Assembly: GCF_006517255.1 (NCBI RefSeq) | Contig: NZ_CP041185.1 | Span: 2,666,001-2,730,000 of the forward strand | Origin: Janthinobacterium tructae | GTDB lineage: Bacteria; Pseudomonadota; Gammaproteobacteria; Burkholderiales; Burkholderiaceae_D | Direction of reading: 5' to 3' | Length of the DNA stretch: 64,000 bases | Shown here: in pieces, positions 56,047 through 59,297 of the stretch | How positions within the stretch are numbered: position 1 is the stretch's first letter | Layout: every line of letters starts with the position of its first letter | Position numbers and translations under genes: made by a program | The notes under the pieces: generated by a model | The model's database searches: none | Told to the model about the DNA's origin: nothing | The model's input: only the letters and a program-made list of their open reading frames with translations

Positions 56047-56137
56047 AAAAGCCAAACCTGGCCTCCGCTTTGTCATGGTTTGTCATATTGGGATGCTAAA
56101 ATCCAAACATCTTTCCAGAGAGCAAAAGGACGCGCGC

Positions 56138-58600
56138 ATGAATTCCAGCACTGAAACGGCCCATGACACCCCAGGCAGCGAGGATGCGCCGCAGGTGACA
56201 GAGATGACCGTGACGGCGCCAGCGCCCATCCGCCTCGACAAGGAAGACATCCCCACCGTGCTGGGCAAGCTGCGCACGCTGGTGCAGGACAAGACGCGCT
56301 TCGAGCCGCAGGACATCACGCCGCTGGGCGAGGAAGATGCCTTGCAGGATTTTTCGCTGCAGGCGAACTACGCGCTCGAAGCGCGCTTCGAGCAGCGCGT
56401 CATCAATGGCTACTTCACGCCATCGGGCAACGACTGCCGCTGTGGCTCCCACGAGGTGGGAGCGCTCGCTCACGCGCAGGAGAAGGAGCGGCTGCGCCGC
56501 GCGGCGGGCAAGCTCGACAATGCCTTGCGCCAGGCGGGCCAGGCCTACAATGGGATCGAGGCGGGCGTCTACCTGCCGCACGCCGTCAAGTACTGGCACC
56601 TGGACACCTGCAACAACTGTCATGGAAAAGGCCGCATCAGCTGCCACACCTGCCACGGCTTGACCACGGAAACCTGCTGGAGCTGCCATGGCGGGCGCAC
56701 CGTCAGCTGTGACGCGTATGGCTGCTACGGCAGCGGCAAGGTGTCGTGCTCGTATTGCAGCGGCAGCGGCTCGGTCGCCGAGCAAGTCACCGATTACGTC
56801 ACGGTGCAGGTGCCCACGACCACCTACAGCAACGGCAGCTCGCACACCAGCTACCACAGTGAAACGCGCACGCAATACCGCACCGAGCATCGCAATTGCT
56901 ACCATTGCAGCTACGGCAAGGTCACGTGCAACAGCTGCCACGGTTCCGGCAACATCAATTGCGGCACTTGCCGCGCCAGCGGCAGTGTCACCTGCCGTAC
57001 CTGCAGCGGCGTGGGGGACTTGCGCTGCAACCCCTGCGACGGCTCCGGCAAGGTGGGCAAGGCGGCCTGGGTCGACGTGCACGTCGCGCCCGGCTACAGC
57101 GTCAGCCTGCCCAAGCAGGCGCCCGACGACGCACGCCGCATCCGCGACAAGGAGAGCGTGCACTCACTGGCGGCTATTGCCAGCAGCCTGGCCCTGGCAA
57201 AAGTGAGCATTTACAATGAAGACCAGCCGCAGGAAGTCGACGCCCTGTACGCAGGCAAGCTGCGCATCGTGCGCCTCGATGCATCGTGCAACGCCGAAAA
57301 GCACCACCTGGTGGCGTACGGCACCGACTTGCGCTGGCTGACCCTGGACGACATCGTGGAAAAGCTGCTGCGCGGCGACCTCAAGGCGCTCAGCGACGCG
57401 CTGGCCGGCAGCGCCGACGACGGCCTGTTCTCGGCCCACGTGCAGGGCTTGTTGACGCCGCTGCGCGACGTGGCAGCCTCGGAGCTGAATGCGGACGTGA
57501 TCGAGTCTGTCCTCAGCGGTGACGCAGACCACGCGCACGTCGATGTCGTCTCGGCCGAGTATGCGCAGAATGTGCGCACCTGCGTGCTCGGTGCCTTGCG
57601 CCAGGTCTACACGCGGCTGGCCAAGCAATTCTGGTGGAAAAGCGCACTGGCCGCGCTGGCCGCCGCCATCGCCACCTGGTTCTTTGCCGGGCGCGGTGCC
57701 GCCGCCGTCGCCGGCCTGCTCGTCACGGGCGCCGCCTACTGGCTGTTCAACCGCAAGGTCAAGGCCGTGCTGAGCGAGGCGCTGGGCGGCGAGCAGCAGG
57801 CCGAACGCGCCATGCGCATCGCCGGCAAGGGCCGCCGCAACCAGCTGGCGCAAGTGCTGGTCCTCGCGCCGGCCAGCCTGGCCGTGCTGGCCGCCAGCTA
57901 TGGCTTGCCCATGCGCGTGCGCCCGGTTTCTGCGCCGCCGCAAACGGCCATGGCCTCGGCGCCCGTCGCCTCCCATGCGCCGGCCGTCGTACCGCAGGAC
58001 GCGAGCAGCGCCAGGGCCGTCAAGCTGTACGAAAATGGCGACAAGGTACAGGCACTGGCCATGCTGGAAAGCCTGGTCGGCAAGGGCGACGCCGGCGCAT
58101 ATGGGCTATATGGCTGGATGCTGCTGATGGGCGAAGGCAAGAGCGGCCCCGCCACCGCGCCAACGGCGCAGCAGCGCGAAGCGCGCCAGGTCGCCGCCAA
58201 GCCCCTGGTCGGCAAGGGCTTGCTGAAAAACGACAGCTATGCACTGACGGCGAAGGGCGTGATGCTGGCCGAAGGCTGGCAAGAACCGCGCAACATGGCG
58301 CGCGGGCTCGACTTGCTGAAACAGGCCGCCAACAAGGGCAATACGCAAGCCATGCACTTGCTGGGCCTGTACCACGTGCGCGGCTACCAGATCCCGGTCA
58401 ACCACGCGGAAGCGCGCAAATGGTTCACCCTGGCCGCCGACAAGGGCAGCGCGGGCGATATCTACAACCTGGGCCTGATGGACTGGGAAGGCGCTGGTTT
58501 GAAACGCCCGGACCGCGCCAGCGCCATGCAGCGCTGGAAGATCGCCGCCGCCATGGGAGAAGAGCGCGCGATTAAGGCTGTAGCGCAAGGCAAACCTTAA
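56138..58600 (+). CDS. membrane protein with ten DnaJ-like Cys hairpins and Sel1 repeats
   Basis: 820 residues from ATG 56138 (AAAGGA upstream). I know no described protein with this layout. Residues 158-207 hold five Cys hairpins (C158/C161, 169/172, 180/183, 191/196, 204/207), several with G-x-G after the second Cys as in the DnaJ zinc domain; residues 208-253 are a Ser/Thr/Tyr-rich insert; residues 254-300 hold five more (254/257, 264/267, 275/278, 286/289, 297/300). C100 and C102 stand apart. Residues about 320-490 are unassigned. Hydrophobic segments lie at about 502-517, 519-537 and 571-590, and the end (about 624-815) contains Sel1/TPR-like repeats ('NMARGLDLLKQAANKGNTQA', 'AEARKWFTLAADKGSAGDIY'). 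Probably a membrane-bound zinc-binding scaffold or chaperone. It is bordered by an AraC gene and meets the next gene tail to tail. Confidence 0.8.
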   Translation: MNSSTETAHDTPGSEDAPQVTEMTVTAPAPIRLDKEDIPTVLGKLRTLVQDKTRFEPQDITPLGEEDALQDFSLQANYALEARFEQRVINGYFTPSGNDCRCGSHEVGALAHAQEKERLRRAAGKLDNALRQAGQAYNGIEAGVYLPHAVKYWHLDTCNNCHGKGRISCHTCHGLTTETCWSCHGGRTVSCDAYGCYGSGKVSCSYCSGSGSVAEQVTDYVTVQVPTTTYSNGSSHTSYHSETRTQYRTEHRNCYHCSYGKVTCNSCHGSGNINCGTCRASGSVTCRTCSGVGDLRCNPCDGSGKVGKAAWVDVHVAPGYSVSLPKQAPDDARRIRDKESVHSLAAIASSLALAKVSIYNEDQPQEVDALYAGKLRIVRLDASCNAEKHHLVAYGTDLRWLTLDDIVEKLLRGDLKALSDALAGSADDGLFSAHVQGLLTPLRDVAASELNADVIESVLSGDADHAHVDVVSAEYAQNVRTCVLGALRQVYTRLAKQFWWKSALAALAAAIATWFFAGRGAAAVAGLLVTGAAYWLFNRKVKAVLSEALGGEQQAERAMRIAGKGRRNQLAQVLVLAPASLAVLAASYGLPMRVRPVSAPPQTAMASAPVASHAPAVVPQDASSARAVKLYENGDKVQALAMLESLVGKGDAGAYGLYGWMLLMGEGKSGPATAPTAQQREARQVAAKPLVGKGLLKNDSYALTAKGVMLAEGWQEPRNMARGLDLLKQAANKGNTQAMHLLGLYHVRGYQIPVNHAEARKWFTLAADKGSAGDIYNLGLMDWEGAGLKRPDRASAMQRWKIAAAMGEERAIKAVAQGKP

Positions 58601-59241
58601 GCTGCTGCCAGCGCCTGCAAGGCCATCGGGTTGGGCGTCGGCTCGCCGATTTTAGTCAGCAGGTTGCGGTCCGTGTGGTGGAAGGGTTCGTCCTTGCCGC
58701 GGATCAGCATGACCGTGTCTTCATCGTAGCCCCAGGTGCCGTCGGCGTGGATGTCGACCTTGATGCGGTATTCGACGGTGGTGAACGCGTGTTCGAGGAA
58801 AGGGTTCGAGCAGATGCCGTAGGCCGTCGAATCGCGCCTGGCCACCAGTTCGAAACTGCTGGCGTCCGCCGTCGTCGTGCCCGACGCCATGGCGATCTGG
58901 CCGCGCGGGATGGCCAGGGTCTGGATCACGGTGCCCGTGGCCGGCTCCCACAGCCAGTAGCCGACCTGTTCATGGTAGGTTTTTACCTGATCCGGCTTGG
59001 TGATGTGGATGTAATAGCGCAAGCCGTAGAACAGTTGCGGGCCATTGGTGACGGGATCGATCGGCTGCAGTTCGATGCGCTCGACAAACGCCTGCTTGCG
59101 CGGGCCGTCCGCTTTCGGCTTGACGTCCAGGCCGCGCGTGCCCGTCCAGATGCCGGCCATGCCGGTCAATGGGCCCAGGTTGTTCAGGGTATGCACGTCG
59201 GCGGACGGCTCGGTGTAGATATCTTCGGAAAAATCGCTCAT
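58597..59241 (-). CDS. heme-binding beta-barrel (nitrobindin/FABP-like) protein
   Basis: 214 residues from ATG 59241. 'LGPLTGMAGIWTGTRGLDVK' resembles the nitrobindin/THAP4-type G-x-W-x-G-x-G opening, and 'QLFYGLRYYIHI', 'VGYWLWEPATGTVIQTLAI', 'FTTVEYRIKVDIHADGTWGY' are barrel strands. Members bind heme or fatty acids and some handle peroxynitrite; the heme-ligand His is not certain here. The stop codons of this and the preceding gene share the TTAA at 58597-58600. Confidence 0.75.
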   Translation of the reverse strand: MSDFSEDIYTEPSADVHTLNNLGPLTGMAGIWTGTRGLDVKPKADGPRKQAFVERIELQPIDPVTNGPQLFYGLRYYIHITKPDQVKTYHEQVGYWLWEPATGTVIQTLAIPRGQIAMASGTTTADASSFELVARRDSTAYGICSNPFLEHAFTTVEYRIKVDIHADGTWGYDEDTVMLIRGKDEPFHHTDRNLLTKIGEPTPNPMALQALAAA

Positions 59242-59297
59242 GCGGAAGTCTTCAAAATGGGGCAACAGTGCTTGCCGCCATTGTAAGACGCAGGCCG

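Follow-up and report, generated by a model that had tools for sequence, protein, structure and literature searches.

The gene at positions 56138..58600 on the forward strand of a 64,000-nucleotide stretch of the Janthinobacterium tructae genome (contig NZ_CP041185.1, positions 2,666,001 to 2,730,000; hereafter the window) encodes an 820-residue protein in an open reading frame without internal stop. We describe here a cysteine ladder in this protein that is predicted to fold as a single antiparallel zinc arm. The start methionine coincides with the start of relatives P0005 and P0012 in the alignment, and an upstream in-frame ATG at 56075 would add 21 residues. All parts of the protein are given on the forward strand. 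Alignments delimit an N-domain (residues 41-155; 56258..56602) with an invariant TRF at 53-55, over which no Pfam model passed its cut-off. The outgoing ladder arm (56609..56770) comprises hairpins 1-5 (C158/161, C169/172, C180/183, C191/196 and C204/207), and the returning arm (56897..57046) comprises hairpins 6-10 (C254/257, C264/267, C275/278, C286/289 and C297/300). Between them lies the Ser/Thr/Tyr-rich tip loop (residues 212-253; 56771..56896), which is the largest gap between hairpins, is centred between the arms and is probably a long beta-hairpin. A C-domain with invariant G395, D414, L418, S448 and E449 follows (residues 304-495; 57047..57622), again with no Pfam model over cut-off, and then three membrane spans predicted by simple hydropathy (residues 502-518, 521-537 and 570-586; 57641..57895), a Pro/Ala-rich linker (residues 593-630; 57914..58027) and a Sel1-repeat tail (PF08238; about residues 690-816; 58205..58585).

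Of the 24 cysteines in the protein, 20 form ten hairpins in two groups of five, at residues 158-207 and 254-300, as the initial annotation of this DNA had recognized from the letters alone. The Ser/Thr/Tyr-rich insert that it placed between the groups, the hydrophobic segments after them that marked a membrane protein and the Sel1 repeats at the C end were likewise recovered. Its description of the hairpins as CxxC-G-x-G units holds for most of them but not for hairpin 4, which is C-x4-C (C191/C196), and the glycines two and four residues past the second cysteine are present in 8/10 and 7/10 hairpins, respectively. All 20 ladder columns were conserved in an alignment of 41 sequences (the query and 40 of 49 matches, with identity down to 23%), 15 of them invariant and five at 90% or more, which speaks against a chance pattern; T53-R54-F55, G395, D414, S448 and E449 were also invariant there. 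In a wider set of 21 sequences C183, C191, C297 and C300 fell below 90%, because this set includes a clade with 4+4 hairpins that lacks one hairpin per arm. Ratios of nonsynonymous to synonymous substitution rates (dN/dS) against five congeneric loci were 0.05-0.17 for the C-domain, among the lowest of the protein, and the C-domain is thus under purifying selection. The corresponding values were 0.08-0.25 for the ladder arms and 0.08-0.22 for the Sel1 tail. The tip loop was as low or lower in four of the five comparisons (0 to 0.16) and reached 0.39 in the fifth, and residues 1-40 were looser (0.14-1.80).

The arrangement of hairpins around the tip was compared across 178 proteins, the query included, to which the widest search contributed the best 120 of its 194 matches. 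Counting allowed CxC, Cx4C and HxxC variants, and at least four hairpins were found in 174/178 proteins. Clustering at 40% identity gave 61 representatives, 60 of which had at least six hairpins (P0161 was dropped) and were used as non-redundant ladders. One gap, taken as the tip, was clearly the longest in 52/60, the remainder being P0041, P0149, P0151, P0160, P0164, P0167, P0170 and P0178. This tip was exactly central in 42/52 ladders, against 5.8 expected at random placement, and the centred ladders were built as 5+5 (22), 4+4 (12) or 3+3 (8). With redundancy kept, 149/163 proteins with a clear tip were centred, with equal numbers of hairpins on each side.

Symmetry was also seen in the spacing of the hairpins. 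The standard gap between hairpins is seven residues, and 21 representatives have at least one arm gap that deviates from this by two or more. We took the longest gap as the axis if it was unique, and otherwise the middle gap, and read the gaps outwards from it. Non-standard gaps coincided at mirror positions in 16/33 cases and at tandem positions in 3/43. Shuffling the gaps of one arm gave a mean of 4.65 mirrored coincidences (standard deviation 1.7, maximum 12), and 16 was reached in 0/20,000 trials. Examples, with the axis gap in brackets, are P0158 (7,7,11,[38],12,7,7), P0175 (7,7,9,[30],9,7,7), P0164 (7,7,7,7,11,[15],11,7,7,7,7) and P0167 (7,7,7,18,[20],17,6,7,7), and in P0149, which has twelve hairpins per side, two 9-residue gaps are mirrored. 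Since an insertion on one strand is answered on the other, this suggests a nested antiparallel ladder and not two tandem fingers, and arms of three or five hairpins argue against pairing between neighbours inside an arm. On these sequence statistics, hairpin i would very probably pair with hairpin 11-i, giving one antiparallel arm with five Zn(Cys)4 rungs. The rungs predicted for this protein are 158/161-297/300, 169/172-286/289, 180/183-275/278, 191/196-264/267 and 204/207-254/257, and the protein is predicted to bind zinc.

Several observations weigh against this geometry. Ten of the 52 representatives with a clear tip were off-centre (P0103, P0111, P0116, P0146, P0159, P0163, P0165, P0168, P0169 and P0176), although in eight of them the two sides differ by a single hairpin, and this can hinge on the counting rule. 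Non-standard gaps were unmatched in 17/33 cases: eight are either fives on one side only or a 4/10 pair, seven occur in P0165, P0170, P0176 and P0178, with the longest gap as the axis, and the last two are in P0103 and P0156. The CxC hairpin of P0117 and the HxxC hairpin of P0043 are not accompanied by a matching change in the predicted partner. The 42 centred ladders are not independent, because they share ancestry and were found with family profiles. DnaJ itself had hairpin gaps of 13,[18],10 in 20/20 loci (31 genomes of the phylum were searched), which is centred but unequal.

Nesting has a precedent in DnaJ. Excerpts of a study of the Salmonella protein (PMC8262869) assign its Zn1 site to C147, C150, C200 and C203, that is to motifs 1 and 4, and report that the quadruple mutant of this site contains about one zinc instead of two. 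Nesting is therefore already established for a 2+2 ladder, which the present family would extend to five rungs. CxxCxGxG-type hairpins are common to both, but DnaJ (PF00684) has four of them and this protein has ten with mostly 7-residue gaps and no J domain. A similar spacing is reported for the C-terminal Cys domain of the vertebrate inner-ear proteins GRXCR1 and GRXCR2 (PF23733), in which a gap of 20 residues is flanked by hairpins with 7-residue spacing; excerpts of a study of GRXCR2 give its motif as CX2CX7CX2CX20CX2CX7C and liken it to DnaJ (PMC6114524). Unlike the ladders described here, these proteins have at most two hairpins per side. Below its threshold of 26 bits, PF23733 also matched the ladder of P0149 with 17.6 bits and that of P0169 with 24.0 bits. 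The Cronobacter proteins P0136 and P0141, named 'DnaJ-like cysteine-rich domain-containing protein', and P0132 and P0138, hypothetical proteins by source name, have 3+3 ladders and gave significant family-profile matches. These differ from the present protein in having three rungs, and no Sel1 model matched P0132 at E ≤ 0.01.

DnaJ-type zinc hairpins without a J domain, as found here, also occur in the plastid proteins BSD2, ZnJ2 and ZnJ6. Excerpts of the ZnJ6 study (PMC7865324) describe a J-less plastid protein that is membrane-associated, is predicted to have a transmembrane domain and shows both holding and oxidative activity. Since membrane proteins of this kind are known, the general idea of a J-less membrane protein with a DnaJ-type zinc domain is not new. 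Unlike this protein, ZnJ2 and ZnJ6 have four motifs, and no Sel1 tail is mentioned for them in the excerpts; the BSD2_CRD model scores 10.5 bits on this protein against a cut-off of 27. ORANGE is grouped in a listing with these plastid J-less DnaJ-type zinc proteins. Animal SSUH2 consists of an N-domain, a DnaJ-like Cys region and a C-domain, and we observed the order N-domain, ladder, C-domain in P0177, P0148, P0173 and P0153, which presumably recalls SSUH2.

Library searches placed the protein in no curated full-length family. Against Pfam and NCBIfam, matches exceeded their cut-offs only for the Sel1 tail (PF08238, 35.7 bits against 30.7 in the Pfam scan), and DnaJ, BSD2, AtTam37 and other models remained below theirs. 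No Pfam DnaJ model for a J domain was found at E ≤ 1, and PF00684, a four-motif model, was also absent from the Pfam matches of this ten-hairpin protein at E ≤ 1. These results support the earlier statements that a J domain is missing and that no named family has this order of parts. Among the relatives, PF00684 scored 28.2 bits on P0035 against a cut-off of 32.7 and 35.2 bits on P0165, and some distant ladder relatives pass this cut-off. A search of the core profile against solved structures returned DnaJ first (E 5.9e-05), and profile comparison with DnaJ gave 96.6% probability over columns 241-386. This alignment was carried mainly by the Cys part and did not establish that the C-domain is homologous to the C-terminal beta domains of DnaJ (CTD I/II). 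PHROGs gave matches to the Sel1 part and a weak one to a single arm. Known anti-phage defence proteins gave no match: P0001, P0049 and P0060 hit 0 PADLOC families at E ≤ 0.1. In open-licence papers we found no description of longer nested zinc ladders, and as far as that literature shows, extended nested ladders are not in print.

The charges around the spans suggest an orientation for the protein. Counted over 15 residues on either side of each span, Lys and Arg number 4/1, 1/3 and 5/2 (before/after), and P0005, P0017, P0020, P0035, P0045, P0047 and P0155 clearly alternate in this way too. By the positive-inside pattern the ladder would be on the cytosolic, reducing side and the Sel1 tail in the periplasm, and we predict this topology with good confidence. 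An extra hydrophobic stretch at residues 343-359, after the ladder, is just over threshold, and there is none before the ladder. Two points tell the other way: P0055 and P0152 show no clear charge pattern, and the number of spans varies among the 28 proteins scanned by simple hydropathy. What follows the spans differs between relatives. PG_binding_1 occurs in P0152 and P0155 and just under cut-off in P0171, LCCL occurs in P0117, PEGA matches P0173 below threshold, and some relatives have no recognized tail. The PG_binding_1 domains of P0152 and P0155 and the LCCL domain of P0117, located past the spans, favor the proposed topology. Because the Sel1 tail is absent or replaced in some relatives, the N-domain, ladder, C-domain and membrane spans form the defining unit, with the Sel1 tail as a variable attachment.

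We searched for this core in three samples of genomes. It was matched in 33/40 Janthinobacterium genomes, including that of the query, or 33/37 of those of good quality, and the nearest homologs are from this genus (L009, at 97% identity). In the family sample the core was present in 23/245 genomes, 18 of them of the same genus. The class sample gave 1/369, the query itself, with at most three candidates scored per genome, so that some copies were probably missed. A tally of 330/392 was left out of the distribution, because its alignment still included the Sel1 repeats and most of the proteins counted are Sel1 proteins; from that search we took further the core matches only. The relatives include proteins from Duganella, Herbaspirillum, Pseudoduganella, Massilia, Chromobacterium, a Gallionella metagenome-assembled genome (MAG), Cronobacter, Ralstonia, a Bryobacterales MAG and Polyangium. 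Plasmid searches with relatives P0132 and P0171 gave no match. Within the genus, the copy at G002:C1:3975921-3977660 (L046) has a frame of 635 residues that a TAA closes soon after the core, and P0024 has a frame of 607 residues; no Sel1 match was seen in either. In one further congeneric genome (G008:C1:2589007-2590739; L049) the gene is split into two overlapping open frames, through either a sequencing error or a real break.

The initial annotation saw no operon partner for the gene, and nothing recurred in the loci that we compared. Of 16 loci examined, twelve are from the genus, and in these the gene mostly has the same neighbors: EamA, AraC-type and methionine aminopeptidase genes, named by eye, and a THAP4-like gene named by Pfam. 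The AraC-type neighbor is missing in L023, L024, L025 and L048. The THAP4-like gene is the convergent downstream gene in the window (58597-59265, reverse strand) and encodes a heme-binding beta-barrel protein (PF08768). Across nine loci that included distant genera (L077, L078 and L080 were excluded as near-copies of loci used), no neighbor family recurred except in the syntenic pair L083/L084 and the distant gene pair L028/L082. Caspase-like genes were seen beside two distant members of the family. In Massilia arenae (L028:5174-7762), genes for an extracytoplasmic function (ECF) sigma factor and a Peptidase_C14 protein precede the family member, and on a Rhodocyclaceae contig (L030:8426-12481) a remnant adjoins genes for a CHAT-TPR protein and an ECF sigma factor. 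Scanning for promoters revealed no promoter-like site, terminators were at chance level, and the RNA scan gave no Rfam family at gathering threshold.

Together these features suggest a working model, which on balance we favor, of an inner-membrane protein whose five-rung zinc arm holds a client or partner and whose periplasmic tail serves for docking. The chain would leave through five Cys hairpins, turn at the flexible Ser/Thr/Tyr-rich tip and come back through five more, with hairpins i and 11-i sharing the one zinc of a Zn(Cys)4 rung, five rungs in all. The arm would stand on the membrane-proximal C-domain and be anchored by the three spans. Its face or tip might then hold or present a client or partner at the membrane, while the Sel1 tail would dock to an envelope partner in the periplasm. 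Hsp70 would not be recruited, because there is no J domain. By analogy with the DnaJ zinc domain and the plastid J-less proteins ZnJ2 and ZnJ6, the protein is most likely a holdase or adaptor that acts through a zinc arm tethered to the membrane and has no J domain, and that client holding would be its main function is a tentative suggestion. The zinc domain of DnaJ binds and holds unfolded substrates, according to excerpts of PMC8262869; a point against attributing such an activity to the zinc arm is that ZnJ6 with its zinc Cys mutated still holds citrate synthase, according to excerpts of PMC7865324.

The initial annotation had likened the cysteine region to a doubled DnaJ zinc domain, and two separate tandem DnaJ-like domains, each group of five folding on itself, would agree with the 46 residues between the groups and with NCBIfam DnaJ models that match either half, below their cut-offs. 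However, the five hairpins of a group (three in relatives) cannot all pair internally, and the poor matching of gaps in tandem (3/43) compared with mirrored positions (16/33) favors one extended nested ladder, so that we regard two tandem domains as quite improbable. A different function for the same cysteines would be that of a thiol oxidoreductase or oxidative-stress sensor that frees zinc on oxidation and is coupled through the membrane, in keeping with ten CxxC-type sites in a predicted cytosolic arm and with the redox activity of zinc-site Cys in DnaJ and ZnJ6 noted in excerpts of PMC8262869 and PMC7865324. We consider such a redox device unlikely: the symmetry of the ladder suggests structural rungs, no thioredoxin-type Pfam domain matched at E ≤ 1, and there was no recurring neighbor, although the neighbors were not annotated one by one for redox roles.

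The exchange of tails on one related core and the strong constraint on the C-domain, among the most constrained parts, would also suit a rigid scaffold or lever that relays an envelope signal from a Sel1, peptidoglycan-binding or LCCL tail to the cytosol and holds no client. This role sits poorly with the several tail-less relatives, such as the 635-residue frame of G002 that ends just past the core, and we judge it doubtful, if less so than the redox device. Membership in a caspase-linked or ECF-sigma stress or defence cassette is suggested by the Peptidase_C14 and ECF sigma genes at L028 and by the remnant beside CHAT-TPR and ECF sigma genes at L030. Two cases are too few for a link, the nine loci share no neighbor family beyond the two pairs named above, and the PADLOC scan of three proteins found no match, and such a cassette is very improbable.

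Returning to the nested ladder, we think it fairly likely that the DnaJ finger is the shortest case of an extensible antiparallel zinc ladder, in which rungs may be gained and lost in mirror pairs from 2+2 to about 12+12, and which bacteria would use as a long rigid arm on proteins that span the membrane and carry interchangeable tails for binding to the envelope. The cysteine-rich domain of DnaJ, known as a unit with two zincs, would then be one point in a nested-ladder series. Many poorly annotated bacterial proteins would gain a predicted fold and a metal count, with rungs numbering half the hairpins and hairpin i pairing with N+1-i. The membrane family would represent an architecture that reaches from the cytosol to the envelope, has swappable tails and lacks a J domain, and in it a DnaJ-type zinc arm would be accessible on its own.

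Some further ladder proteins were observed alongside these comparisons. Ladders of 14 to 24 hairpins are present in P0149 (about residues 340-601), P0151, P0162, P0160, P0165 and P0170; one of them lies behind a sulfatase-modifying-factor-like domain, and several are palindromic in their gaps without a long tip loop. A 940-residue relative from another genus of the family (L085:6450-9272, forward strand), which was outside the statistics, has a 6+6 ladder without a long tip. In P0159 and P0168 the ladder is fused to TerB, and no spans were found in P0159; these hint at a link between ladders and TerB-type stress systems.

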